A stretch of DNA of 46,499 nucleotides from a virus. The notes beneath the pieces were generated by a model. That model was given only the letters and a program-made list of their open reading frames with translations. It did no database searches and was not told the origin of the DNA. The translations under genes and the position numbers were made by a program. The stretch is from the IMG/VR virus record IMGVR_UViG_3300042546_000476, positions 1 to 46,499 of that record, one strand, 5' to 3'. Of the stretch, positions 1,746-28,676 are shown piece after piece. Positions within the stretch are counted from its first letter, which is position 1. Each line of letters opens with the position of its first letter.

Positions 1746-1821
1746 ATTCCCAACGGGTTCTGTGGTATTCTTAAGGAGTGGTTGAGAGACCACCAGCACC
1801 TTGACAATCTAAACCTTTAAT

Positions 1822-1894
1822 GGGTCTGTTGCATAGCGGCTAATGCACCTGGCTTTTAACCAGTATATCGTGGGTTCGAGTCCCACCAGACCCA
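1822..1894 (+). tRNA. tRNA-Lys (TTT)
   Basis: Acceptor GGGTCTG/CAGACCC, anticodon loop CTTTTAA, T-loop TTCGAGT, discriminator A. First tRNA of the array; CCA is not encoded. Confidence 0.95.
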
Positions 1895-1932
1895 TTGACC
1901 GCTACAGTTCGGTCATTAAACATAAACTGTTC

Positions 1933-2014
1933 GGGTAGGTGTCCGAGTGGTTAATGGAGGAGGTCTGTAAAACCTCTGGCTCTGCCTACGGGGGTTCAAA
2001 TCCCTCCCTGCCCA
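1933..2014 (+). tRNA. tRNA-Tyr (GTA)
   Basis: Class II tRNA with a long variable arm. Acceptor GGGTAGG/CCTGCCC (one G-U), anticodon loop CTGTAAA, discriminator A. Confidence 0.93.
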
Positions 2015-2018
2015 CCTT

Positions 2019-2092
2019 GACCCATTAGTGTAGCGGTTTATCACGCCACCCTGTCACGGTGGAGATCACGGGTTCAAATCCCGTATGGGTCG
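2019..2092 (+). tRNA. tRNA-Asp (GTC)
   Basis: Acceptor GACCCAT/ATGGGTC, anticodon loop CTGTCAC, T-arm ACGGG TTCAAAT CCCGT, discriminator G. Confidence 0.95.
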
Positions 2093-2140
2093 TTGCTACG
2101 CTGCCTGTGGAGTATTCCTCCTTGGTGGTTGTAGCATCAT

Positions 2141-2212
2141 GGTCCTATCGTCTAGTGGTGAGGACATCACTCTTTCACAGTGAAGACACGGGTTCAAATC
2201 CCGTTAGGACTA
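2141..2212 (+). tRNA. tRNA-Glu (TTC)
   Basis: Acceptor GGTCCTA/TAGGACT with a G-U first pair, anticodon loop CTTTCAC, discriminator A. The upstream spacer (2093-2140) folds on TGCTAC/GTAGCA. Confidence 0.94.
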
Positions 2213-2215
2213 CCA

Positions 2216-2289
2216 CGGAATGTAGCGCAGTTTGGTAGCGCATCTGTTTTGGGAACAGAGGGTCGCAGGTTCGAATCCTGTCATTCCGA
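2216..2289 (+). tRNA. tRNA-Pro (TGG), first copy
   Basis: Acceptor CGGAATG/CATTCCG with C1-G72 as usual for Pro, anticodon loop TTTGGGA. A second Pro(TGG) gene lies at 6057. Confidence 0.95.
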
Positions 2290-2292
2290 CCA

Positions 2293-2365
2293 GGAAACAT
2301 AGCTTAGTTGGTAAAGCATTCGACTGATAATCGAAAGAGCACTGGTTCGAGTCCAGTTGTTTCCA
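2293..2365 (+). tRNA. tRNA-Ile (GAT)
   Basis: Acceptor GGAAACA/TGTTTCC, anticodon loop CTGATAA, discriminator A. It is followed by the hairpin GTTGCC-TTAA-GGCAAC. Confidence 0.95.
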
Positions 2366-2388
2366 TTGTTGCCTTAAGGCAACATTAA

Positions 2389-2478
2389 GGAAGTGTGGCA
2401 GAGAGGTCTAATGCAGTGGATTGCTAATCCGCCGATGTTCTTTAAGGGCATCCGTTGGTTCGAATCCAACCACTTCCG
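2389..2478 (+). tRNA. tRNA-Ser (GCT)
   Basis: Class II, 90 nt. Acceptor GGAAGTG/CACTTCC, anticodon loop TTGCTAA, discriminator G as expected for Ser. The 87-nt spacer after it holds hairpins AGCAAG-GTG-CTTGCT and CTCTT-CAGA-AAGAG. Confidence 0.93.
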
Positions 2479-2565
2479 TAGGACTCCAGCAAGGTGCTTG
2501 CTAGGATATAAAAGACTGACGCCTCCCTCTTCAGAAAGAGTAACCAGCAGGTCAGCGTCCACTTT

Positions 2566-2637
2566 GGCAGTGTAGTTCAGTGGTAGAACAAGAGATTCAT
2601 ACCCTCTATGTCGGTAGTTCAATTCTACCCACTGCCT
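2566..2637 (+). tRNA. tRNA with CAT anticodon (Met or Ile2)
   Basis: Acceptor GGCAGTG/CACTGCC, anticodon loop TTCATAC, T-arm GGTAG TTCAATT CTACC. The lowest anticodon-stem pair is A-C. Elongator Met and lysidine-type Ile cannot be told apart here. Confidence 0.88.
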
Positions 2638-2638
2638 T

Positions 2639-2710
2639 GTGTCGTTAGCCTAGTGGTTAAGGCAGTAGTTTGTGGAACTACCTAGATGGGTTCAATTCCC
2701 ATACGACACC
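2639..2710 (+). tRNA. tRNA-His (GTG)
   Basis: Anticodon loop TTGTGGA. The 5' G and the matching C fit the extra G-1:C73 pair typical of tRNA-His. T-arm ATGGG TTCAATT CCCAT. Confidence 0.92.
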
Positions 2711-2712
2711 CC

Positions 2713-2784
2713 GCCCTTATAGCTCAGTGGTAGAGCAACTCACTAGTAATGAGTAGGTCGTTGGTTCAAATCCGACTGAGGGCT
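2713..2784 (+). tRNA. tRNA-Thr (AGT)
   Basis: Acceptor GCCCTTA/TGAGGGC. A perfect anticodon stem ACTCA/TGAGT holds the loop CTAGTAA, so the anticodon reads AGT. A34 is uncommon in bacteria outside Arg. A 9-bp hairpin (AACTATCTG/CAGATAGTT) follows. Confidence 0.85.
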
Positions 2785-2819
2785 CTCAACTATCTGAAAT
2801 TTCCAGATAGTTCATACAA

Positions 2820-2891
2820 TCCAGAATCGACTAACTGGCAGGTCAGCACCCTTTGAAGGTGTACGTCTAGGTTCGAATCCTAGTTCTGGAA
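2820..2891 (+). tRNA. tRNA-Gln (TTG)
   Basis: Acceptor TCCAGAA/TTCTGGA, anticodon loop CTTTGAA, discriminator A. Confidence 0.94.
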
Positions 2892-3080
2892 TTGCCCCTA
2901 ATGGGGCAACAATCTGTCCAACACTGGGGTTCGACTCCCCACATCTCCACTCTTGGGGATGAACTGGCATTCGACTGGGCAGAGGGTTCTGAGAATAAAT
3001 CTCAACAACATCGTATCTTTCCGCAGAACTGCTGTTGCCGTTTGAGCAATAGCACTTTGAGCGAACTGGGGAGTAATCCC
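2892..3080 (+). ncRNA. ssrA: circularly permuted two-piece tmRNA
   Basis: The acceptor part comes first: P2 strand TCTGTCC (2913-2919), T-arm TGGGG TTCGACT CCCCA and acceptor strand CATCTCC plus A73 (2942-2949). After a 5-nt gap comes the coding part, GGGGATG (2955-2961) with the tmRNA signature AACTGGCATTCGACTGGG. The acceptor pairs GGGGATG/CATCTCC and keeps the G3-U70 alanine identity pair; P2 pairs GGGCAGA (2977-2983) with TCTGTCC. The tag frame at 3004-3045 reads NNIVSFRRTAVAV then TGA, close to the Synechocystis tag as I recall it. A hairpin precedes (2892-2909) and another follows (3068-3080). Marine cyanobacteria are known to have permuted tmRNA. No room remains for the usual chain of pseudoknots. 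End points are estimates. Confidence 0.85.
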
Positions 3081-3087
3081 TTTTTCT

Positions 3088-3159
3088 GTTGGGTTGGTGC
3101 AATTGGTAGCATCTCGGTCTCCAAAACCGAAGATCAGAGTTCAAGTCTCTGGCCCTTCG
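3088..3159 (+). tRNA. tRNA-Trp (CCA)
   Basis: Anticodon loop CTCCAAA, stem TCGGT/ACCGA, T-arm CAGAG TTCAAGT CTCTG, discriminator G, with CCA encoded at 3160-3162. The acceptor stem GTTGGGT/GCCCTTC carries two T-T mismatches (positions 2-71 and 3-70), which is unusual. Confidence 0.85.
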
Positions 3160-3163
3160 CCAT

Positions 3164-3237
3164 ACCCTCTTAACTCAGTGGACCAGAGTGCTTGGCTACG
3201 AACCAAGAAGTCGCAAGTTCGAATCTTGCAGAGGGTG
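3164..3237 (+). tRNA. tRNA-Arg (ACG)
   Basis: Acceptor ACCCTCT/AGAGGGT, anticodon loop CTACGAA, discriminator G, CCA encoded at 3238-3240. Confidence 0.95.
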
Positions 3238-3277
3238 CCATTTAAATCTAAATAGCAACAAGAGGTGTGATAGGAAA

Positions 3278-3748
3278 ATGGAATTAGTAGAACCACACTC
3301 AACTATACTAGTTTTGAATAGTTCTTACGAGCCACTACACTTCACTAATTGGAAACGTGCAATAGTTTTACTTTTCAAACAGAAAGCAAAACTTATCTCC
3401 AAGAGAATTATTCGTTTGGTGAATTATGTGAAAATTCCATTTTCCTATGGAAGATCAGATTACCCGACGAGAGCACTCATCTATAAACGGGATGATTATG
3501 AGTGTCAGTATTGTGAGTCTAAAAATGACCTTACAATTGACCACATAATTCCCCGCTCAAAAGGTGGTAAAGATACTTGGGATAATTTAGTTGCTTGTTG
3601 CACATCTTGTAATCTCAAAAAAGGAAATAAACTTCTTAAAGAGACTAATATGATCTTAAAGAGTATTCCGCAAGCACCAATTAGTAGAGTAATACTTGAT
3701 ATTCAGAAAACAAAAGTTTCTGAATGGAAGGACTATTTGTTTCAGTGA
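3278..3748 (+). CDS. HNH endonuclease
   Basis: The 156-residue protein begins MELVEPHSTILVLNSSYEPL, an N-terminus shared with cyanobacterial HNH endonucleases (VLNSSYEPL followed by WKRAIVLL). The nuclease core at about residues 80-125 shows CQYC, then DHIIPRSKGG, WDNLVACC and SCNLKKG, that is, two zinc-binding Cys pairs and the HNH residues. ATG 3278 is chosen because earlier codons of the frame lie inside tRNA-Arg. It may be a homing or restriction-like nuclease in the tRNA array; the substrate is unknown. Confidence 0.85.
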   Translation: MELVEPHSTILVLNSSYEPLHFTNWKRAIVLLFKQKAKLISKRIIRLVNYVKIPFSYGRSDYPTRALIYKRDDYECQYCESKNDLTIDHIIPRSKGGKDTWDNLVACCTSCNLKKGNKLLKETNMILKSIPQAPISRVILDIQKTKVSEWKDYLFQ

Positions 3749-3752
3749 GAGA

Positions 3753-3781
3753 TTGACAAATTTTTGAAAATACCCTAATAT
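3753..3781 (+). promoter_or_regulatory. sigma70-type promoter for second tRNA block
   Basis: TTGACA (3753-3758), 17-bp spacer, TAATAT (3776-3781), between the HNH gene and the tRNA at 3844. Confidence 0.55.
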
Positions 3782-3843
3782 ATAAAGACAGAGGTTAAGT
3801 CCCTGTTACATCCTTATGAGGTGTATCACACTTAATCCATCAT

Positions 3844-3915
3844 CGTGGGGAAGTGTAATGGTTGCACAGAAGTCTCATAAGCTTCAGGTAGGTGGTTCAA
3901 CTCCATCCCCCGCCT
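3844..3915 (+). tRNA. tRNA with CAT anticodon (unusual acceptor)
   Basis: Anticodon stem GAAGT/GCTTC with loop CTCATAA, D-stem GTGT/GCAC, T-arm GGTGG TTCAACT CCATC. The acceptor CGTGGGG/CCCCGCC has an unpaired first position (C-C), and the conserved U8 is A. An unpaired 1-72 recalls initiator tRNA, but the type is not certain. Confidence 0.7.
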
Positions 3916-3918
3916 CCA

Positions 3919-3991
3919 GCCCTTGTATTCCAATGGTAGAGAAGGTGGACTTAGAATCCATACAGTGTAAGTTCGAATCTTACCAGGGGCA
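3919..3991 (+). tRNA. tRNA with TAG anticodon in a class I body
   Basis: Acceptor GCCCTTG/CAGGGGC, anticodon stem GTGGA/TCCAT, loop CTTAGAA, T-arm GTAAG TTCGAAT CTTAC, discriminator A. The anticodon UAG reads leucine CUA codons, yet the variable loop is only about 5 nt, whereas bacterial tRNA-Leu is class II with a long arm. Confidence 0.8.
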
Positions 3992-3992
3992 C

Positions 3993-4021
3993 TTGACAAT
4001 CAAACTTAAATAGTTTATAAT
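3993..4021 (+). promoter_or_regulatory. sigma70-type promoter upstream of tRNA-Gly
   Basis: TTGACA (3993-3998), 17-bp spacer, TATAAT (4016-4021). The tRNA begins 11 bases downstream. Confidence 0.75.
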
Positions 4022-4031
4022 TGTCTTATAA

Positions 4032-4103
4032 GCGGAGTTAGTTCAGCGGTAGAACGCTATCCTTCCAAGTTAGATGTCGTCGGTTCGATTCCGATACTCC
4101 GCT
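4032..4103 (+). tRNA. tRNA-Gly (TCC)
   Basis: Acceptor GCGGAGT/ACTCCGC, anticodon loop CTTCCAA, T-loop TTCGATT. One T-T mismatch in the anticodon stem. Confidence 0.93.
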
Positions 4104-4155
4104 CTGAACCTTCGGGTTCTATAAACACACAAACACACTTCATAGGAGAATACTT

Positions 4156-4353
4156 ATGACGCCTTATCAACTTAGATTTGAAGTTTTTAAGCAAGCTTAT
4201 GCGATGCTTTCGGATAATTATCATGTAGAGTTTGCAAAAGCAGAATGCTCTAATGGTGGCAAATTGCCGGATGGATTTGATTTAAAATATCCAACTCTTT
4301 CTGATGTTCTTGGGCACGCAGAAACGATTAATGATTTTGTAAGTTCTAAGTAA
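4156..4353 (+). CDS. conserved-looking cyanophage small protein (65 aa)
   Basis: MTPYQLRFEVFKQAYAML begins a 65-residue protein of mixed charge that ends in a helix-like stretch (YPTLSDVLGHAETINDFV). AGGAG lies just upstream of ATG 4156. It resembles small helical proteins found in many T4-like phages, but I cannot name a function. It sits between tRNA-Gly and tRNA-Asn and is probably cotranscribed from the promoter at 3993. Confidence 0.75.
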   Translation: MTPYQLRFEVFKQAYAMLSDNYHVEFAKAECSNGGKLPDGFDLKYPTLSDVLGHAETINDFVSSK

Positions 4354-4361
4354 TAGAACAT

Positions 4362-4433
4362 TCCCCTGTGGCGCAGCGGTAGCGCGAGAAACTGTTAATT
4401 TCCAGGTCACAAGTTCGAATCTTGTCGGGGGAG
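4362..4433 (+). tRNA. tRNA-Asn (GTT)
   Basis: Acceptor TCCCCTG/CGGGGGA, anticodon loop CTGTTAA, T-loop TTCGAAT, discriminator G. Confidence 0.94.
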
Positions 4434-4435
4434 TT

Positions 4436-4533
4436 GCTATCAGTAGCAAACTGTAGGTGCCAAATACCCCTTCTGGTTAATGCTGGAAGAAGTAAAGAGT
4501 GTGGACATAGGTAAAGTCCACAACACCTACCAC
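4436..4533 (+). ncRNA. candidate three-way-junction RNA between tRNAs
   Basis: GTAGGTG (4453-4459) pairs with CACCTAC (4524-4530). Inside are two hairpins: CTTC (4470-4473)/GAAG (4486-4489) and TGTGGAC (4500-4506)/GTCCACA (4516-4522). A further hairpin, TTGCTA/TAGCAA, precedes it. The 100-nt spacer has no reading frame. It fits no ribozyme or riboswitch I can recall, and may be an RNA of its own or a processing element. Confidence 0.4.
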
Positions 4534-4535
4534 AA

Positions 4536-4607
4536 CCTCTGGTAGTCTATTGGTAAGGACGGGCGGATAACGCACTTGGAAACTAGGTTCGATTCCTAGA
4601 CAGAGGT
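4536..4607 (+). tRNA. tRNA-like gene, isotype not assignable
   Basis: D-arm GTCT-GGAC, T-arm CTAGG TTCGATT CCTAG and acceptor CCTCTGG/ACAGAGG (one mismatch) are tRNA-like. The anticodon arm is abnormal: the best fold is GGGCG/CGCAC with a 5-nt loop GATAA, and no normal 7-nt loop with U33 exists. It could be a decayed tRNA. Confidence 0.6.
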
Positions 4608-4610
4608 AAC

Positions 4611-4683
4611 GGGAGCATAGCTCAGCGGTAGCAGCGTCTGCTTTACACGCAGAATGTCGGGGGTTCGAATCCCTCTGCTCCCA
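4611..4683 (+). tRNA. tRNA-Val (TAC)
   Basis: Acceptor GGGAGCA/TGCTCCC, anticodon stem TCTGC/GCAGA, loop TTTACAC, discriminator A. Confidence 0.95.
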
Positions 4684-4687
4684 CTTG

Positions 4688-4695
4688 CATAAATA
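4688..4695 (+). promoter_or_regulatory. T4-type late promoter CATAAATA
   Basis: CATAAATA ends 15 bases before ATG 4711 of the Dps-like gene. This is close for a late promoter, but it is the only element in the gap after tRNA-Val. Confidence 0.4.
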
Positions 4696-4710
4696 TTGAA
4701 AAAGAGTATA

Positions 4711-5145
4711 ATGGAAAAACTGTTTAAACTTTTAAGTGATGCTCAGTCATCACTTTTTGTTTTATTTCATAAAACTTGGGCATTTCATTGGAATGTAGTT
4801 GGTGAAGATTTCACACAACTACATCAACTCTTTGGTGGACAGTATGAGACTATGTTTGAAGAGATTGATCGTCTTTCTGAACATATGAGATACTTAAATG
4901 TAAAACCATTAAGTTCTCTTTCAAGAATGCTTGAAGTGACTCAAATCAAAGAGTCTGCAAGTTCAACTGGAGCAAAAGAAATGCTTCAGGAACTTCTGGA
5001 TAATAACACCAAGTTTTGTGAGTTAATGGCAGAGATTTCGGAAGAAGCAGAAGAACAAAAGTCTTATGCAACTGCCAATCTAGTTCAAGACTTAATGGAA
5101 TCTCATGGTAAATTTGTATGGATGTTGAGATCACATTTACAGTGA
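4711..5145 (+). CDS. Dps-like ferritin (DNA protection / iron storage)
   Basis: The 144-residue protein has the Dps ferroxidase pattern intact: His26 and His38 separated by 11 residues, Asp53 after a further 14, and Glu57 in D-x3-E, in the context AFHWNVVGEDF and LHQLF. It has the length and all-helical make-up of the family. Dps proteins form 12-subunit shells that oxidise Fe(II) with peroxide and may coat DNA. In a phage this could protect DNA or store host iron, which is inference. ATG 4711 is preferred over the TTG at 4696 because the family N-terminus aligns there. Confidence 0.85.
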   Translation: MEKLFKLLSDAQSSLFVLFHKTWAFHWNVVGEDFTQLHQLFGGQYETMFEEIDRLSEHMRYLNVKPLSSLSRMLEVTQIKESASSTGAKEMLQELLDNNTKFCELMAEISEEAEEQKSYATANLVQDLMESHGKFVWMLRSHLQ

Positions 5146-5160
5146 TAAGGATGAAGAAAA

Positions 5161-5412
5161 ATGATTTCAATAAGATGTAAAGATTGCAATAAAGAATTAA
5201 CAGGACACCCATCAAAAACAGTTACTTGTGGGTGTCCTAATATGGCAACAATTCGTGGAGACAAGATTTCGGCACTTGACTTATCTCGAATTGTCATGCT
5301 AAACTCTCTAAAAGAAAATCAAAACAAAAGTGTGCTTACTTCTCAAGACATTGCTTGGCAAGAAGCACGTCGTCAACGTAAAGTAAGACGACTTGATTTT
5401 GAAGTCCGTTGA
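5161..5412 (+). CDS. small zinc-ribbon-like conserved cyanophage protein (83 aa)
   Basis: Cys pairs RCKDC (residues 5-9) and TCGCP (about 22-26) could form a small zinc ribbon. The rest is charged and ends in an Arg-rich helix (EARRQRKVRRLDFEVR). It lies 15 bases after the Dps-like gene and before tRNA-Ser. I recall similar proteins in many T4-like cyanophages without a known function; a nucleic-acid-binding role is inference from the basic tail. Confidence 0.75.
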   Translation: MISIRCKDCNKELTGHPSKTVTCGCPNMATIRGDKISALDLSRIVMLNSLKENQNKSVLTSQDIAWQEARRQRKVRRLDFEVR

Positions 5413-5423
5413 GGACTTAATTT

Positions 5424-5510
5424 GGAAGGTCAATCCGATTGGCGACGGAACCGCTCTTGAAAAGCGTTGAGGTGTTAAAGCCCTTGGGAGTTCGACTCTC
5501 CCACCTTCCG
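5424..5510 (+). tRNA. tRNA-Ser (TGA)
   Basis: Class II, 87 nt. Acceptor GGAAGGT/ACCTTCC, anticodon loop CTTGAAA, discriminator G. Confidence 0.94.
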
Positions 5511-5623
5511 TTTAGAAAAGTTACAAATTTAACAATTTCTTCAACAGTGTTAAGATATCAACACAAAAAGTTGACTGCGAAATACCTGTGATTAGTATAT
5601 AGTAGTATCACGGGGACGAACCG

Positions 5624-5773
5624 ATGGATCAACATACTTACGAAAATTGGGTGAAAATCAAAGAAACATTTGAAACTTCTGGTAATATTGATAATATGTT
5701 TTACAAAAGAGCCGTTCAAATTGTTAAAACAAGAGTCGATCCTCTTGCAAAGTTTTTGGGAGATGAGAAGTGA
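5624..5773 (+). CDS. small hypothetical protein (49 aa)
   Basis: ATG 5624 begins MDQHTYENWVKIKETFE and runs 49 codons. GGGGACGAA upstream may serve as ribosome binding site. The stop overlaps the next ATG (TGATG), which argues for real translation coupling. Helical and charged; no family recognised. Confidence 0.55.
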   Translation: MDQHTYENWVKIKETFETSGNIDNMFYKRAVQIVKTRVDPLAKFLGDEK

Positions 5774-5940
5774 TGGAACCTGGGGATGAATTTATTAGTA
5801 GGTCTGAAGTGCAGGAGATGATCGACCAAGCTATTGACAAACACAATAAAACTGCTACAATAATATCAGCAGCAATCGGTTCGGTTCTGCTCTTCTTCTA
5901 TGCCCACGGCGTCATTGCTATTATAGATAGAGTACAATGA
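5773..5940 (+). CDS. small single-pass membrane protein (55 aa)
   Basis: The 55-residue product has an acidic soluble N-terminal half (MEPGDEFISRSEVQEMIDQ) and one transmembrane segment (about residues 29-50, TIISAAIGSVLLFFYAHGVI). It is coupled to the preceding gene by TGATG and to the following one by an ATGA overlap. Unknown function; the arrangement is typical of small phage membrane peptides. Confidence 0.6.
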   Translation: MEPGDEFISRSEVQEMIDQAIDKHNKTATIISAAIGSVLLFFYAHGVIAIIDRVQ

Positions 5941-6056
5941 GACACTTTGCTCATTTAATTTTGGATAATCAGGTTTCGCTTTTTATCCTTTGCTACCTCT
6001 TGACAATGGTTCCAATCATGGGTATAATGATTATACACCAAACAAAAGAAAAATAA
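5937..6056 (+). CDS. small hydrophobic peptide (39 aa)
   Basis: The ATG at 5937 overlaps the stop of the preceding gene. The product has one hydrophobic stretch (about residues 13-33) and a short charged tail (HQTKEK). Its coding region contains a perfect early promoter (6000-6028) for the following tRNA. Function unknown. Confidence 0.5.
   Translation: MRHFAHLILDNQVSLFILCYLLTMVPIMGIMIIHQTKEK
6000..6028 (+). promoter_or_regulatory. sigma70-type promoter upstream of second tRNA-Pro
   Basis: TTGACA (6000-6005), 17-bp spacer, TATAAT (6023-6028). It lies inside a small ORF and leads to the tRNA at 6057. Confidence 0.7.
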
Positions 6057-6132
6057 CGGAGTATCGCCTAACTTGGTCATGGCACCTGCTTTGGGAGCAG
6101 GAATAATTTCGGTTCAAATCCGAATACTCCGA
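6057..6132 (+). tRNA. tRNA-Pro (TGG), second copy
   Basis: Acceptor CGGAGTA/TACTCCG, anticodon stem CCTGC/GCAGG with loop TTTGGGA. Same anticodon as the gene at 2216 but clearly different in sequence, so it is not a recent duplicate. Confidence 0.92.
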
Positions 6133-6148
6133 TCATAAAAATAACTTT

Positions 6149-6376
6149 ATGAAAATGCAAGAACTAGAAGAACTTCAATCCTTTACAGTCGAAGAGTTTC
6201 AATCTGATTTTGACAATCTAATACAAAGAGTAGAAAACGGTGAATCATTTATCATACGAGATGGAAATAATAGCGCAGTGATAGTTCCTTACAACGAAAC
6301 CATAAAGTACGCAATAGAATCAACTGTGGATGACGAACTGATACGTCTTCACACAGACCACGAAGAAGGTTCTTGA
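6149..6376 (+). CDS. Phd/YefM-type antitoxin-like protein (75 aa)
   Basis: The centre of the protein (FQSDFDNLIQRVENGESFIIR then AVIVPYNE) resembles Phd/YefM-type antitoxins, in which a strand-helix-strand unit ends in an AVIVP-like strand. An acidic C-terminus follows. No toxin partner is visible next to it. It could repress its own promoter or neutralise a host toxin; both are inference. The ATG at 6149 is used, with a second possible start at 6155. Confidence 0.6.
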   Translation: MKMQELEELQSFTVEEFQSDFDNLIQRVENGESFIIRDGNNSAVIVPYNETIKYAIESTVDDELIRLHTDHEEGS

Positions 6377-6401
6377 CACAGAGTTCCAGATCCTCTATAA
6401 T
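6373..6401 (+). promoter_or_regulatory. sigma70-type promoter upstream of the class II tRNA
   Basis: TTGACA (6373-6378), 17-bp spacer, TATAAT (6396-6401). The -35 overlaps the stop codon of the antitoxin-like gene. Confidence 0.75.
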
Positions 6402-6415
6402 AGATTCAGATTCAA

Positions 6416-6503
6416 GCGAGTGAGACTTGGTAGTCAGAGGGCACTTATAACGCCTTTCCGCCAGATTAGCGGCTTTGACCTGGTTCGAATCCAGGCACTC
6501 GTA
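6416..6503 (+). tRNA. class II tRNA, Leu-like body with apparent TAT anticodon
   Basis: Acceptor GCGAGTG/CACTCGT (first pair G-U), long variable arm CCGC-GCGG, T-arm CCTGG TTCGAAT CCAGG and discriminator A suggest a Leu-like body. The anticodon arm GGGCA/CGCCT gives loop CTTATAA, so the anticodon reads UAU, an isoleucine code. The A-C closing pair leaves a possible 9-nt loop, so the isotype is ambiguous. Confidence 0.75.
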
Positions 6504-6531
6504 TTGTTATTCGTGATTTGCGAATAGCGAA

Positions 6532-6606
6532 TGCCCGTTTGGCCCTCTGGTGAAGGCAATCTGCTCATAACAGATAGAAGGTCGGATCGTAACCGACAAC
6601 GGGCAT
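6532..6606 (+). tRNA. tRNA with CAT anticodon and variant T-loop
   Basis: Acceptor TGCCCGT/ACGGGCA, anticodon stem ATCTG/CAGAT with loop CTCATAA. The T-stem GTCGG/CCGAC encloses ATCGTAA, in which the usual T54-A58 pair is replaced by A54 and T58. A T run follows directly and may act as terminator. Confidence 0.8.
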
Positions 6607-19623: not shown

Positions 19624-21090
19624 ATGAAATTCTTTCAACAACTGATGCTTGCACCTGTTGCTCTGGGAATGGTTGCTCCTGCTGCGACTGCGGCAGACCT
19701 TAATATGAATGGGGTCAACCAATATTCCGCCGATCAGGTTACAAGCGTCACTCAATTTTCTGATGTACGTCCTACTGATTGGGCATATCAGGCACTCAGC
19801 AACCTCGTAGAGCGTTATGGTTGCGTTGCTGGTTACCCTAACGGAACCTTTGGTGGTGGTAAAGCGATGACTCGTTATGAGGCAGCAGCACTTCTGAATG
19901 CTTGCCTTGATCGTGTGACTGAAGTTACCGATGAACTGAAGCGTCTTCAGGTAGAATTTGCACAAGAACTTGCTGTTCTTCGTGGTCGTGTAGATAAACT
20001 GGAAGCACAAGTTACTACTCTTGAAGCACAACAGTTCTCCACTACAACCAAACTGCGTGGTGAAGCAAACTTTGTAATTGGTAATGTAGATAATTATCAA
20101 ACTAAGGCTGGTGATGTAACTCACGCCGCATTCAACTATGATCTGCGTCTGAACCTGGACACTTCGTTCACTGGTAAGGATCTGCTTCGCACTCGTCTGC
20201 GTTCTTCCAACTTCAGTGCAGATCCTTTTGGTTCCAGTTCATCTATCTTTAAACTGGATAAGGCAGACAACACTACAGGTGAGAATGGTAACAATGTAGT
20301 TATCGATCGTCTGTACTATCAGTTCCCTGCGTTCAATAACACCACCACATTTACTGCTGGTGCTCTAGTTCGTAACACTGAAATTGCTTGGCTGCCTACT
20401 GCTTATAGTTCCAAGATCCTTGACTTCTTCCAAGTTGCTGGTGCTCCTGGTGTTTATAACAAAGCAGTTGGTTCTGGTTTCGGTGTCCAGTATGGTAACA
20501 AGGGTCTTGTTGCTGGTGTAAACTATGTTGCCCAAAATGGTAGCGATAGTGCTACTGGTGAATTTGACCGCTCTGGTGCTCTGAACACTCTGGCACAGAT
20601 CGGTTATCGTGGTGACAACTATGGTATCGCATTTGGTTATCGTTATGGTACTGAAGGCACCCGTGTTCGCACCTACAACGGTCTGAATGGTGCTTCAGGT
20701 ACTCTGGTTCCTGGTCAAACCTCTAACGGTTATGCGATCAACGCTTACTGGCAGCCCACTCAATCTGGTTGGGTTCCCTCCATCTCTGGTGGTTACGGTT
20801 GGAACACTGTAAGTGGCACTCCTAGTGCTGCTACCAACAGTCAATCTTGGTTTGCTGGTCTTCAGTGGGAAGATGTGTTTGTTGATGGAAACACTGCTGG
20901 TGTTGCTATCGGTCAAGCTCCTACTGGTTCTAACCTTGAGAAGTCCACGATGCTTGAGATCTTCTACAAGTATCAAGTGTCTGATAACATCAGCGTCACT
21001 CCTGCTATCATCTATGGTAGTGACAATCAGCGTCTTGCTGGTAACTCCTCAAATTGGGGAGGAATTTTACAAACAACCTTTAAGTTCTAA
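19624..21090 (+). CDS. cyanobacterial-type outer-membrane porin (SLH + OprB-like)
   Basis: 488 residues. A signal peptide (MKFFQQLMLAPVALGMVAP, cleavage near AATAA) is followed by an SLH domain (FSDVRPTDWAYQAL, YPNGTFGGGKAMTRYEAA), a coiled coil (about residues 100-130) and a long beta-barrel ending in a C-terminal Phe. This is the build of the major cyanobacterial porins. Codon use is richer in C and G at third positions than in neighbouring genes, suggesting host origin. It would add or replace an outer-membrane channel during infection, which is inference. ATG 19624 is chosen for the signal peptide. Confidence 0.9.
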   Translation: MKFFQQLMLAPVALGMVAPAATAADLNMNGVNQYSADQVTSVTQFSDVRPTDWAYQALSNLVERYGCVAGYPNGTFGGGKAMTRYEAAALLNACLDRVTEVTDELKRLQVEFAQELAVLRGRVDKLEAQVTTLEAQQFSTTTKLRGEANFVIGNVDNYQTKAGDVTHAAFNYDLRLNLDTSFTGKDLLRTRLRSSNFSADPFGSSSSIFKLDKADNTTGENGNNVVIDRLYYQFPAFNNTTTFTAGALVRNTEIAWLPTAYSSKILDFFQVAGAPGVYNKAVGSGFGVQYGNKGLVAGVNYVAQNGSDSATGEFDRSGALNTLAQIGYRGDNYGIAFGYRYGTEGTRVRTYNGLNGASGTLVPGQTSNGYAINAYWQPTQSGWVPSISGGYGWNTVSGTPSAATNSQSWFAGLQWEDVFVDGNTAGVAIGQAPTGSNLEKSTMLEIFYKYQVSDNISVTPAIIYGSDNQRLAGNSSNWGGILQTTFKF

Positions 21091-24301: not shown

Positions 24302-24991
24302 ATGAGAGTAGATCTTCATAACTTTTTTCAGTATTATGATCCAAAGAATCCTAAACATGTTGCAGCAGTCGAACAACTAGAAGTTGACTTAAAGGATTCT
24401 CCTCTACTTGACGATAGTTCTAATTGGGTCAAAATTTATAGAACAAAACCAACTGTTCCGGGAGTCCTACCCGTTCCTTTTTATCCACAGACAGATAATT
24501 ATAGAGATGCGCAAAGAACCTGCAATTCATCTGCTTGTGCAATGTGCCTAGAGTATTTCAAACCAGGCACTCTCCAAGGAGCAAAGGGTGATGATACCTA
24601 TATTCAAAAAGTATTTGCAATTGGTGATACAACTGATCACACCGTACAGACAAAAGTTCTGGAAGGTTATGGTATTAAGTCACGATTTAGTTACAATCTT
24701 GGGTTTGCTGATCTTGATCGTGAGTTATCCGCTGGGAGACCTGTTGTTATTGGTATCCTTCACAGGGGCACTCTATCTGCACCTACTGGTGGGCACATGG
24801 TTGTAGTGATTGGGAAGAGAGGTGAGGATTATGTTGTGAACGATCCTTACGGTTCTCTGAATGATGGATATACTGGACCAGTCACAAACGGTAAAGGTGC
24901 GGTGTATAAGAAATCTGATCTGAACTTCCGTTGGTTAGAAAAAGGTAAAGATAAGACTGGTTGGGGGCGTATTTTTGACGCAAAAAAGTAG
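24302..24991 (+). CDS. C39-like cysteine peptidase (zero-frame product)
   Basis: 229 residues. PVPFYPQTDN supplies the oxyanion Gln63, QRTCNSSACAMC the nucleophile Cys74, GGHMVVVIG the His165 and VVNDPYG the Asn180/Asp181: the full set of a papain-like C39 domain. Such domains cleave peptides, including cell-wall or protein targets. The gene ends GCA AAA AAG TAG, a slippery run followed by a strong stem, and the -1 frame continues into a lysozyme. It therefore looks like the front half of a lytic fusion protein. A late promoter is upstream. Confidence 0.85.
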   Translation: MRVDLHNFFQYYDPKNPKHVAAVEQLEVDLKDSPLLDDSSNWVKIYRTKPTVPGVLPVPFYPQTDNYRDAQRTCNSSACAMCLEYFKPGTLQGAKGDDTYIQKVFAIGDTTDHTVQTKVLEGYGIKSRFSYNLGFADLDRELSAGRPVVIGILHRGTLSAPTGGHMVVVIGKRGEDYVVNDPYGSLNDGYTGPVTNGKGAVYKKSDLNFRWLEKGKDKTGWGRIFDAKK

Positions 24992-25482
24992 AAAGTTCTA
25001 CTCCTGATTCGAGTAAAAGTGATATATCCATAAAAGGAGTAGAACTTATAAAAGAATTTGAAGGATGTCACTTAAATGCTTATCCAGACCCTTTAACAAA
25101 AGGACCACCGATTACAATTGGTTGGGGAAGCACTAGAGACTTTGACGGAACGCCATTTAAAATAGGTAGAGTGATTACTCAAAAGTATGCAGACACTCTA
25201 CTTGAGTTTGATTTAAAGAATAGATTTTTACCATCACTTCAAAGAATACCTTACTGGAATGAAATGAATGAAAATCAACAAGGAGCTCTTCTATCTTTTG
25301 CTTATAATCTTGGTGCTGGTTTTTACGGGTCTTCCAATTTTAATACCATAACCAGAGTTCTTAAGAATAAAGAGTGGTCTAAAGTTCCTGATGCTTTATA
25401 TCTTTACCGCAATCCTGGAACAAGTGTGGAAGCGGGTTTGAAAAGAAGAAGAGTTGCAGAAGGTAAACTCTGGTCTTCTTAA
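24979..25482 (+). CDS. lysozyme (GH24-like) domain, expressed as -1 frameshift extension
   Basis: The frame is open from 24979 but has no ATG, GTG or TTG until GTG 25171, which lies after the catalytic part. Read by a -1 shift at 24982-24988 it continues the C39 peptidase through a Ser/Asp linker into VELIKEFEGCHLNAYPDP and ITIGWGST: the catalytic Glu and Asp (E-x8-D) and the Thr-bearing strand of T4-lysozyme-like muramidases. The core continues with NENQQGALLSFAYNLGAG and ends at 25482. The fusion would be about 393 residues with two lytic domains. A sequencing error is the alternative. Confidence 0.8.
   Translation, partial: RKKVESSTPDSSKSDISIKGVELIKEFEGCHLNAYPDPLTKGPPITIGWGSTRDFDGTPFKIGRVITQKYADTLLEFDLKNRFLPSLQRIPYWNEMNENQQGALLSFAYNLGAGFYGSSNFNTITRVLKNKEWSKVPDALYLYRNPGTSVEAGLKRRRVAEGKLWSS
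24982..25047 (+). promoter_or_regulatory. programmed -1 ribosomal frameshift signal
   Basis: Slippery heptamer A AAA AAG (24982-24988) sits in the correct phase one codon before the TAG stop. After 4 nt, AAGTTCTACTCC (24993-25004) pairs perfectly over 12 bp with GGAGTAGAACTT (25036-25047), loop 31 nt. This is the layout of the E. coli dnaX signal. Confidence 0.75.
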
Positions 25483-26149: not shown

Positions 26150-26260
26150 TACGAGTCTCTCATAACTCTTAACATTGTTAAACACCCATTAACCGAGACC
26201 TATGGGGTGTATAAATTACGTCTCTCATATCTTCTCTAGGGGTGAGAAGAAATATTGAAC
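26150..26260 (+). ncRNA. structured psbA leader (PhotoRC-like candidate)
   Basis: A hairpin pairs ACACCC (26182-26187) with GGGTGT (26205-26210) around AACCGAGACCT, and a second stem-rich part (CTCTAGGGGTGAGA) follows. PhotoRC RNA motifs are known upstream of psbA in cyanobacteria and their phages; the position matches, but I could not test the consensus. Confidence 0.35.
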
Positions 26261-26302
26261 CCTGTTCGTCCCCACGAACTCTTACTTAACCCTTTTTCAA
26301 AT

Positions 26303-28676
26303 ATGACTGCTTCAATCGCTTCACGCCGTTCTGGCGAAAACCTCTGGGAACAATTCTGTTCCTGGGTAACTTCAACCGATAATAGACTGTATGTTGGTTG
26401 GTTCGGAGTCCTTATGATTCCTTGCCTTCTTGCTGCTACAACTTGTTTTATTATCGCTTTCATCGGTGCTCCCCCTGTAGACATAGACGGTATCCGTGAA
26501 CCCGTTGCTGGTTCACTAATGTATGGAAACAACATCATCTCTGGTGCTGTTATTCCAAGTTCTAATGCCATTGGATTGCATTTTTACAGCATCTGGGATG
26601 CTGCTTCTCTTGATGAGTGGCTTTATAAATAATATTGGGTCACTTTAAATCGGGTGAACTGCTGGAAAGCTAAGTTCTTTATGAAACACAAACATCACCT
26701 TACTCCAAAATATCTTGGTGGTTCTAACGAATCCCAAAATCTTGTAGAAGTTTCTACAACTCAACACGCTATGTTTCATTATTGTAACTGGCGTCTTTGG
26801 GGAAACGAAGAAGATAAGATTGCTTGGAAAGCACTTGCAGGATACTCTAAAAAAGAGGAAATAATTCATCAAGTTATTTCTCTTGCAGGTAAAAGAGGTG
26901 GTAAGGTTGCAAAAGAAAGCGGACAACTTCGGTCTGCTGCTCTTAAACAACCAAGAAGTGTAAGGCAAAAGATTGGTAAAAATCTTATCAACTATGCCTA
27001 CAAAAATCCAAAGAATGCAACACAAGAAACTCTTACTAATAGAAAATACAGTAAAGTATTTCACATTTATGAAAAACTAACTGAAAGGACTATTGGTAAT
27101 CATCTTGGGGATGTAGTTTTTAATCCAGAAGAAGATAAAACACTCAAAACTGTTTGTTCTATTATTCTGGAAAAATATGGGGTAAAAGTTTATCCTTCAC
27201 ATCTTAATAGTGTTGCTAATGGAAATAGACTTTTAACAAGTGGTATTTCTTGTAGTTGGATTTTAGAGAATATGCCAATCAGCATCCAAGCCACAGACGA
27301 TACTTCTGTGGAAGGTTCAGAGACTACTGGGTTCAACAAGCGTGTTGAGTAATACCAGATTAGCGCCCGACATCTTATAAAAAATAAGATGAAGATATAG
27401 TCCAGTCCATATGGAAACATATGGTTCCCCCGACTGCTATAATGGGGGTCCTTTCCAACTTGTTGTCTTCCACTTCCTCATCGGCATCTACTGCTATATG
27501 GGTCGTGAATGGGAACTCTCTTACCGTCTAGGTATGCGCCCTTGGATTATGGTTGCTTATAGCGCACCTGTTGCTGCTGCGAGTGCTGTATTCCTGGTCT
27601 ATCCTTTCGGTCAAGGTTCTTTCTCTGATGCGATGCCTCTTGGTATCTCTGGTACATTCAACTACATGCTTGTATTCCAGGCAGAGCACAACATCCTGAT
27701 GCACCCCTTCCACATGCTTGGAGTTGCTGGTGTCTTCGGTGGTTCTCTTTTCTCTGCTATGCACGGATCTCTTGTCACCTCTAGTCTTGTACGTGAGACT
27801 ACAGAAAATGAGTCACAGAACTACGGATACAAGTTCGGACAAGAAGAAGAAACCTACAACATTGTAGCTGCTCATGGTTATTTTGGTCGCCTTATCTTCC
27901 AATATGCTTCCTTCAATAACTCACGTTCACTTCACTTCTTCCTTGCTGCTTGGCCCGTTGTAGGCATCTGGTTCACTGCTCTTGGTGTTTCTACAATGGC
28001 TTTTAACCTCAATCGTCGGGGTCCCGTCTTAGCAATTTGACGGTAAACATCGGGTGAACTGCTGGAAGCCCTCCATAAATGGGTAATCAGCATCCAAGTC
28101 CAAAGTACACTTTGGAAAGGTTCAGAGACTACCTGAGGAGTTCAGTCTCCTTAATAACAGGAATAAGTGCCCGACATCCTAAATGGATGAAGATATAGTC
28201 CACTCCTTAAAGATGGTAAATTTAAGGGTTCAGTGCAACGGTTTTAATTTCAATCAGTCCATCATTGACTCACAAGGTCGTGTCCTTAATACTTGGGCAG
28301 ATGTACTGAATCGTGCAGGTCTCGGAATGGAGGTCATGCATGAACGGAACGCTAGATTTGTTGGTGTTCTTGCTTAGGAATAAGCATTAGTAAAATCGGG
28401 TTAAACGGGGAAACTCTCTATGAGACAATCCCGTACCAAGTCAGAAAGGGTTTAAGTTTTCTGAAAGGTCTAACGACTAGATGGTGAGTCCCAACAATAA
28501 TCCATCCACGAATGCCCGACATCCAGAACGGATGAAGAGATAGTCTGAACTTACTAGTGATAGTAAGAAGTAGAGGATAAAGAACCACTACGATAACAAA
28601 ATTGCACAACTTCCCACTTGACCTTGCCGCAGCAGAAGCAACACCAGTTGCTCTTACTGCTCCCGCAATCGGTTGA
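26303..28676 (+). CDS. psbA: photosystem II D1 protein, split by three group I introns
   Basis: Exons 26303-26622, 27437-28009, 28236-28353 and 28605-28676 join to 1083 nt, encoding 360 residues, the normal D1 length. Each exon ends in T and each intron in G, as required for group I splicing, and the joins restore D1: EWL|YNGG, FNL|NGFNF and ERNA|HNFP. D1 binds the P680 chlorophylls, pheophytin, QB and the Mn cluster; phage D1 replaces the short-lived host copy during infection. The Tyr and His ligands, and the C-terminal processing site after LDLA, are present. One oddity: LHFYSIWD has Ser where the usual sequence is FYPIW. Expression needs three splicing steps. Confidence 0.95.
26623..27436 (+). 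mobile_element. group I intron 1 of psbA, encoding an HNH endonuclease
   Basis: 814 nt. P1 forms between exon GTGGCT (26617-26622) and GGGTCAC (26637-26643), with T-G at the splice site. Core elements: ATCGGGTGAACTGCTGGAA (26649), GGTTCAGAGACTAC (27314), GCCCGACATC (27365), GATGAAGATATAGTCCA. Last base is G. The core is shared with intron 2. Confidence 0.92.
26681..27352 (+). CDS. intron-encoded HNH homing endonuclease
   Basis: 223 residues from ATG 26681. [31 protein letters not shown] and [12 protein letters not shown] match the free-standing HNH protein at 6654, so the two are paralogues. The C-terminal part would bind DNA. The reading frame runs through the 3' core of the intron (the GGTTCAGAGACTAC element is coding), so the protein and the ribozyme overlap. 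It likely cuts intronless psbA near codon 107 to spread the intron. A GTG at 26654 would add nine residues encoded by the 5' intron core. Confidence 0.85.
   Translation: MKHKHHLTPKYLGGSNESQNLVEVSTTQHAMFHYCNWRLWGNEEDKIAWKALAGYSKKEEIIHQVISLAGKRGGKVAKESGQLRSAALKQPRSVRQKIGKNLINYAYKNPKNATQETLTNRKYSKVFHIYEKLTERTIGNHLGDVVFNPEEDKTLKTVCSIILEKYGVKVYPSHLNSVANGNRLLTSGISCSWILENMPISIQATDDTSVEGSETTGFNKRVE
28010..28235 (+). mobile_element. group I intron 2 of psbA (no ORF)
   Basis: 226 nt. P1 pairs exon ACCT with GGGT (28019-28022), T-G at the splice site; last base G. It shares the exact 19-mer ATCGGGTGAACTGCTGGAA (28049), AATCAGCATCCAAG, GGTTCAGAGACTAC, GCCCGACATC and GATGAAGATATAGTCCA with intron 1. Confidence 0.92.
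28354..28604 (+). mobile_element. group I intron 3 of psbA (no ORF)
   Basis: 251 nt. P1 pairs exon AACGCT (28348-28353) with GGTGTT (28363-28368). The core differs from introns 1 and 2: AAACGGGGAAACTCTCTATG, TCTAACGACTAGATGGTGAG, GCCCGACATCC and GATGAAGAGATAGTCTGAAC, like T4 td/nrdB-type introns. Last base G. Confidence 0.92.

Follow-up and report, generated by a model that had tools for sequence, protein, structure and literature searches.

Our analysis suggests that a programmed −1 ribosomal frameshift of the dnaX/IS type controls the output of a bimodular endolysin gene in the phage described here and in many of its relatives, a reading to which we assign a probability of roughly 0.9 on comparative sequence data. 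The junction lies within a stretch of 46,499 bases of viral DNA that was analysed as a whole and is called the window below (Table 1). The last codons of a peptidase ORF in the window read GCA AAA AAG TAG; the −1 frame, which opens after a TGA and ends with a stop at 25482, encodes a lysozyme. No ATG, GTG or TTG occurs in the lysozyme frame of the window before a GTG at 25171, i.e. 3′ of the codon (25060–25062) for the Glu of an FEG motif, which we take to be the catalytic residue from its resemblance to T4-type lysozymes.

A sequence-only reading of the window had already proposed this arrangement, and its coordinates for the peptidase end and the in-phase heptamer were all verified. Its statement that the −1 frame is open but startless up to the catalytic Glu also holds, as does that of a complete muramidase domain, which matches the PF00959 profile from position 1 to 125 of 125. 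The predicted stem begins 4 nt past the heptamer and pairs perfectly, as that reading had it, but is an uninterrupted helix of 13 bp rather than 12 bp. Folding of the 75 nt 3′ of the heptamer gives −18.4 kcal/mol (z −4.3), and none of 500 dinucleotide shuffles reached so low an energy. The relatives described below confirm that this predicted anatomy goes beyond chance: heptamer, stop and stem are kept while the stem sequence changes.

Table 1. Features of the peptidase–lysozyme junction and of the lysine tRNA gene in the window (positions are those of the window).
Feature	Position	Strand	Basis or remark
Zero-frame ORF: N-terminal endolysin module and C39-type cysteine peptidase	24302..24991	+	229 aa, stop TAG
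N-terminal module, ~50 residues (xIDLHNFFxYYD..WVxIYR)	24302..24451	+	boundaries by eye, from alignments and other architectures
Peptidase_C39_2 (aa 56-183)	24467..24850	+	Pfam PF13529, E 2.5e-11; C39/papain-like fold matches of the L073 model
−1 frame with GH24 lysozyme, no start ahead of the catalytic motif	24979..25482	+	joined to the peptidase by the proposed frameshift
A AAA AAG slippery heptamer, zero-frame phase	24982..24988	+	read from sequence
Zero-frame stop TAG, immediately 3′ of the heptamer	24989..24991	+	read from sequence
Putative stimulatory stem, 5′ arm	24993..25005	+	predicted pairing
Putative stimulatory stem, 3′ arm; overlaps lysozyme codons for KGVEL	25035..25047	+	predicted pairing; covariation
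Phage_lysozyme (GH24)	25051..25461	+	Pfam PF00959, full length, E 5e-22; PDB matches
Phage tRNA-Lys(UUU), which reads both slip-site codons (AAA, AAG)	1821..1895	+	tRNA gene search

We envisage that most ribosomes would finish the N-terminal module and the C39 peptidase and stop at the TAG; the ORF for this product is seen directly, and termination would be the commoner outcome. A fraction of ribosomes would be held up by the 13-bp hairpin while AAA AAG is occupied by two Lys-tRNAs; the tRNAs would re-pair one base back on AAA AAA, and translation would continue as K K V E S S T P D..., across a flexible linker and into the GH24 lysozyme. The cell would then contain two enzymes with a common N-terminal module, the peptidase alone and the peptidase joined to the lysozyme, in proportions that the RNA signal determines. 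In support of the fusion product, some relatives encode a peptidase–lysozyme fusion in frame. The tRNA-Lys(UUU) encoded by the phage may have a role in frameshifting. In the draft genome of Synechococcus lacustris Tous, which may be incomplete and is not that of the known host, we found 40 tRNA sites, the one tRNA-Lys among them being UUU, with no CUU; the single tRNA-Lys situation is linked to ribosomal slipping in E. coli (PMC5009743).

To judge from its genes and relatives, the window derives from a T4-like cyanophage. It carries two ORFs with Photo_RC matches, psbA- and psbD-like, together with 22 tRNA genes, and its relatives are S-PM2-like. The tRNA genes lie within less than 5 kb (1821–6606) and include tRNA-Lys(UUU) and three tRNA-Met(CAU). 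The psbA-like gene (26255–28567) is apparently broken by group I introns, with matches to Rfam RF00028 at 27159–27424, 28000–28227 and 28344–28567, all above the gathering score; its first intron region holds an ORF (26654–27352), and a PhotoRC-II RNA precedes the gene at 26170–26263. The phage also encodes a porin with SLH and OprB domains (19624–21087), presumably of the cyanobacterial outer-membrane type.

To judge from their domains and from the GenBank annotation of relatives as endolysin or lysin, the predicted products probably serve to lyse the host, cleaving the peptide as well as the glycan bonds of its wall. PHROG 3617 covers peptidase and lysozyme in the same order, and PHROG lysis families are among the matches; the peptidase sequence profile gave no match in the PDB. 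A predicted structure of the natural in-frame fusion of contig L073 has a mean pLDDT of 83 and a pTM of 0.50, a value that leaves the relative placement of the domains unsure. Foldseek matched one half of this model best to GH24-type endolysins and the other half, more weakly, to C39/papain-like proteases. Confidence is lowest at residues 233–240 (ENSTPSGS), the linker right after GWGRIFDVKKV, and a second weak stretch (residues 190–199) lies within the peptidase.

The N-terminal module also occurs on other lytic or lytic-looking phage enzymes, such as a single ORF (L328, 2000–3112) that encodes a GH24 lysozyme, then the module, then Peptidase_M15_3; by eye, it is doubled ahead of C39 in a Pseudanabaena sequence (L342) and an Oscillatoriales MAG (L341). 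Two further sequences, L329 and a fragment of L037, are called lytic by eye only, because Pfam gave no family for either. We infer from the spread of the module that the gene probably encodes an endolysin with a shared targeting module rather than a structural protein, although S-ShM2, where a distant C39 relative forms part of a far larger protein, counts against the endolysin reading. A Synechococcus lacustris contig (L350, 1184–2440) carries a lysozyme–C39 fusion in the reverse order, either a host gene or part of a prophage. A C39 peptidase homologue of S-CBP4 (L207, 1501–2060) is matched in two pieces where no gene is annotated, perhaps a further frame break.

Relatives were collected by protein-guided and pattern scans of IMG/VR loci, two of the scans being seeded on the heptamer. 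One classification was applied to 338 sequences (the window, phage records and contigs), which gave 279 records and 164 distinct junctions; 308 peptidase matches were considered, of which 27 without a lysozyme downstream and 2 running off the contig end were left out. The distinct junctions comprise 99 of PRF type, 11 with the heptamer and a start/stop overlap, 13 with the overlap only, 10 in-frame fusions and 31 separate genes (26, plus 5 in which the −1 frame just overlaps the peptidase end and an ATG follows 14–17 nt on). The PRF-type class is defined by the heptamer, whose presence in every member therefore holds by construction; the slip site is AAAAAAG at 96 of the 99 and TTTTTTT at 3. 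A −1 frame overlapping the peptidase end without an in-phase heptamer was found at 18 junctions, 13 with a start codon at the stop and 5 with an ATG 14–17 nt after the first base of the stop, and no junction with an overlapping −1 frame that lacks both the heptamer and such a start was seen among the 164.

The search of relatives for the same heptamer, stem and frame change, and for compensatory changes in the stem, thus bore out the sequence-only reading: 99 of 164 junctions are PRF-type and the predicted stem covaries. The proposal of two products, peptidase alone and peptidase plus lysozyme, gains support from relatives with a kept heptamer and stop and a covarying stem. The frameshift layout is present as described but not confined to this phage, being found also in S-PM2, S-CAM7 and many uncultured phages; part of the family does without it and has a start/stop overlap, split genes or a fusion instead. 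As separate genes make up just 31 of the 164 distinct junctions, the two domains do not always occur as separate genes that each have a start.

Because two other scans were seeded on the heptamer, an unseeded scan gives the fairer frequency; it was run with patterns from the first half of the peptidase, and we took the 80 relatives most like the peptidase of the window out of 413. These best 80 comprise 48 PRF-type loci, 6 with heptamer and overlap, 16 with overlap only, 1 fusion and 9 with no lysozyme found within 1.5 kb. Among the 9, L050 shows the heptamer, the zero-frame stop and the beginning of the lysozyme before the contig ends, three (L037, L063 and L081) carry an ATGA-overlapping ORF of another type that looks lytic by eye, and five have no obvious partner. 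Representatives of the two scans not seeded on the heptamer include 23 and 17 PRF-type junctions. At some junctions of the ATGA-overlap type, the ORF after the peptidase opens with another short module (MTIxFxDAxK...), which precedes the lysozyme in L070 and a different lytic-looking domain in L037, L063 and L081.

The predicted stem changes in sequence yet stays paired. Measured as the longest helix starting 0–16 nt after the heptamer, PRF-type stems have a median of 11 bp, compared with 7.15 in shuffles, and a mean folding z of −2.6, whereas the 26 separate-gene controls reach 7 bp, compared with 6.7 in shuffles, and z −1.0. Taken singly, 61 of the 99 stems have a length that no more than 5 of 100 shuffles reach, and 38 are not individually unusual. 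The spacing between the heptamer and the 5′ arm is 4–8 nt at 74 of 99 loci and 2 nt at 22, and the loops closed by the stems reach about 44 nt. We saw no class-specific SD-like stimulator upstream; GGNAGA often precedes the site, but it does so in non-frameshift relatives too.

Covariation was assessed by a partner-swap test that needs no stem definition, in which the 20 nt from 2 nt past the heptamer were paired with the 24 nt around the lysozyme start motif, using 85 unique arm pairs from the 96 of 99 loci with the motif and non-overlapping arms. Own arms pair over a mean of 10.78 bp, compared with 6.71 for arms swapped between loci and 5.53 for arms swapped between loci less than 70% identical. 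None of 10,000 permutations reached the observed mean, the best giving 7.67, a count that is no strict probability because related loci are not independent. Pairing in the fixed windows falls below 8 bp in 6 of the 85: the stem lies elsewhere in L282, L312 and L313, and is weak in L116, L286 and L304. A single MAFFT alignment was rejected for pair counts, as the 5′ arms of different stem families were out of register by eye; the per-column compensatory table is an illustration and not a test, because the stems in it were chosen for pairing.

The slip site itself is uniform. The A run has exactly 6 bases at 106 of 107 A-type sites and 7 at the remaining one, and the T run has 8 at 3 sites. That all 83 dereplicated A-type rows have AAA AAG at the slip site is a consequence of how the class was defined; of the 84 KK pairs at other places in these ORFs, 11 are AAA AAG. 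The zero-frame stop is TAG in 76 and TAA in 9 of the 85 dereplicated PRF-type rows, and TAG in 1 of 24 separate-gene rows.

The sequence-only reading would not survive raw sequence with a different A count and one continuous frame, and such alleles do exist: the same anchored pattern occurs with A7 in 5 stretches, against at least 119 with A6 (a figure not hand-checked stretch by stretch). In the A7 alleles (L391, on the same contig as L073, and L392–L395), peptidase and lysozyme form one continuous frame with the stem still present; four of them (L391, L393, L394 and L395) share one protein sequence, and L392 belongs to a different lineage. These five stretches would suit a sequencing or assembly error, the true sequence having seven A's; however, two separate deposits of S-PM2 agree at the junction, the S-CAM7 clade carries another heptamer and the stem covaries, which errors cannot produce, and alongside the A6 majority they leave this explanation next to no chance for the window. 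For the family, sequencing error is excluded by independent genomes (S-PM2, S-CAM7 and uncultured phages) together with covariation.

Alternatively, transcriptional slippage could add one A on the A6 run, or its equivalent on the T run of S-CAM7, and normal translation would then yield the fusion. A suitable run is present, including the T8 of S-CAM7, the A7 genomic alleles encode exactly such a fusion, and slippage is used by Thermus dnaX (PMC5009743). Yet transcriptional slippage favours longer runs, and here the A run keeps its length of 6 with a single exception and shows no growth. The in-phase trailing G, the 4–8 nt spacing at most sites and the covarying stem are features of ribosomal frameshifting. 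The Synechococcus draft has a single tRNA-Lys, a situation tied to ribosomal slipping in E. coli (PMC5009743). We consider transcriptional slippage very unlikely as the basis of the fusion.

A different proposal is that the lysozyme is made separately, through reinitiation at the TAG or from a non-canonical AUA or AUU start just downstream, and that the heptamer is incidental. Relatives with ATGA or GTGA overlaps, 13 without and 11 with the heptamer, indicate that translational coupling is probably workable for this gene pair. However, 67 of the 99 PRF-type junctions have no ATG, GTG or TTG ahead of the catalytic motif in the lysozyme frame, the heptamer and stem are the conserved parts, and the −1 frame is open through the heptamer, so that we hold independent synthesis to be exceedingly improbable. 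The other 32 have one of these codons somewhere in the linker or upstream of the lysozyme motif, and at one PRF-type junction (L104) an ATG lies 5 nt after the first base of the stop. For the window itself an own lysozyme start was rejected, none being found ahead of the catalytic Glu. A decayed remnant, in which the lysozyme would be a pseudogene left by a frameshift mutation of an ancestral fusion, might be suspected from the existence of in-frame fusions (10 of 164), but the lysozyme is full length with conserved motifs in the aligned loci and both stem and heptamer are conserved, and this origin is barely conceivable.

Cultured phages show the range of layouts. S-PM2 reads GCA AAA AAG TAA with the lysozyme in the −1 frame, and its stem sequence is altered relative to the window, including a T–A to C–G pair; a spontaneous deletion mutant of S-PM2, deposited as a separate record, has the same layout and is identical to the original genome over 700 bases around the junction. 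In S-CAM7 (three isolates: L008, L217 and L400) the peptidase ends GTT TTT TTT CCA CAG TAG, with T TTT TTT in phase and the lysozyme in the −1 frame; its 8-bp stem, of another sequence, begins 5 nt past the heptamer and is matched on length alone by 11–28 of 100 shuffles. The records of both phages list the enzyme after the junction as no more than a C-terminal "lysin" fragment or a hypothetical ORF, never as a frameshift product. S-SRM01 has an ATGA overlap and retains the heptamer; DSL-LC02 and DSL-LC03 encode the lysozyme in a separate gene that carries a copy of the N-terminal module itself; ACG-2014f encodes one in-frame peptidase–lysozyme fusion; and S-CREM1 encodes one in-frame fusion with the domains in the opposite order. 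In ACG-2014f isolate Syn7803C25 (L396, 801–2261) the fusion CDS is annotated with 486 aa, not 405, and covers the position of an antenna-protein gene in other isolates.

A AAA AAG is in phase at six of the 10 distinct fused junctions, namely the ACG-2014f types (L007, L319, L320 and L322) and L107 and L109, and at each of them reading in the −1 frame would end at a stop one codon on. The same mirror layout occurs in five further ACG-2014f records (L219 and L396–L399) and in contig L321; the in-phase heptamer is absent from the other four fusions (L073, L314, L315 and L318). These junctions may represent a mirror frameshift with the polarity of E. coli dnaX, in which the fusion would be read in the zero frame and the short form made by a −1 shift. 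L107 and L109 have a long stem in the 75-nt fold, and z values of +1.0 and +1.3 in a 40-nt window, where the stem is missed because the window end cuts off the 3′ arm; the hairpin of the ACG-2014f type is only mildly unusual (z −1.1 to −1.9). The ACG-2014f-type sequence GAGGAGGG-TAAG-TTG could instead be an internal start signal.

For the peptidase tree, 5 of the 164 junctions were left out and the remaining 159 were dereplicated to 138 rows. The layout labels need 19 changes on this tree, with PRF-type rows on either side of the midpoint root and the separate-gene rows in one clade of 23, plus L117. Support is below 80 on 65 of 135 inner branches, and given this weakness in many places we claim several changes of layout but no order among them. 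The S-CAM7-like rows, with the T-type heptamer, group with fused and mirror rows at a support of 98, and their signal may therefore have arisen separately.

We offer one broader interpretation tentatively, as possible but on balance doubtful: selection may act on the output of two products and not on the fusion. The family would then alternate between forward frameshift, mirror frameshift, start/stop overlap and split genes, all four of which would retain a form with the peptidase alone, and the phage tRNA-Lys(UUU) might help to set the ratio late in infection, so that the dose of lysozyme would be timed by decoding.

If the frameshift reading is correct, programmed frameshifting would be central to how cyanobacterial viruses lyse their hosts, and the gene concerned is one that annotation cuts short or overlooks. 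The natural variants of stem, loop and stop would form a library for how frameshift signals evolve, are switched on or off and perhaps invert, and S-PM2 on Synechococcus WH7803 provides a cultured pair with this junction. The mechanism class is known; new to us are its setting in a bimodular endolysin, the extent to which the signal covaries in nature and a possibly inverted polarity. The claim that no two-enzyme frameshift fusion had been described in cyanophages agrees with our search: no earlier description of a frameshifted peptidase–lysozyme was found in the open literature searched, subscription journals lying mostly outside its scope.

Several known systems resemble the junction in part. 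The fusions of ACG-2014f and, in reverse order, S-CREM1 combine the same two domains in one polypeptide, but in a single reading frame. Phage tail-assembly chaperones are likewise encoded by a gene pair read as a short and a frameshifted long product, whereas the present case concerns lysis enzymes and not tail assembly. The PRFect paper names both tail-assembly chaperones and lysins among genes known to contain a frameshift, and its references cite a Lactococcus phage lysin made from two overlapping genes, which we liken to the present case by its title alone; lysin frameshifting is thus not new as an idea. The endolysin gene of phi2638A and lysA of Ms6 reportedly also give a full and a shorter endolysin from one gene, but translation of their short form begins at an internal or embedded start, whereas here it is predicted to arise at the stop met by non-shifted ribosomes, without the C-terminal lysozyme. 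Signals of the IS3/IS911 type share the A AAA AAG-type heptamer and downstream hairpin, with stimulators that generally begin 5–8 nt downstream (PMC4066793); the phage case differs in involving no mobile element, in the protein encoded and in its loops of up to about 44 nt. The E. coli dnaX gene (tau/gamma) combines A AAA AAG with a downstream stem and yields long and short products with a common N-terminus, and the phage case differs from it in being an endolysin, in adding a second catalytic domain by the frameshift, and in that no class-specific SD-like element was found upstream. Bacterial dnaX is described in both polarities, and a few bacteria seem reversed, with tau made by the frameshift and the gamma stop directly after the shift site (PMC5009743), which is the same layout as at the phage endolysin junction.
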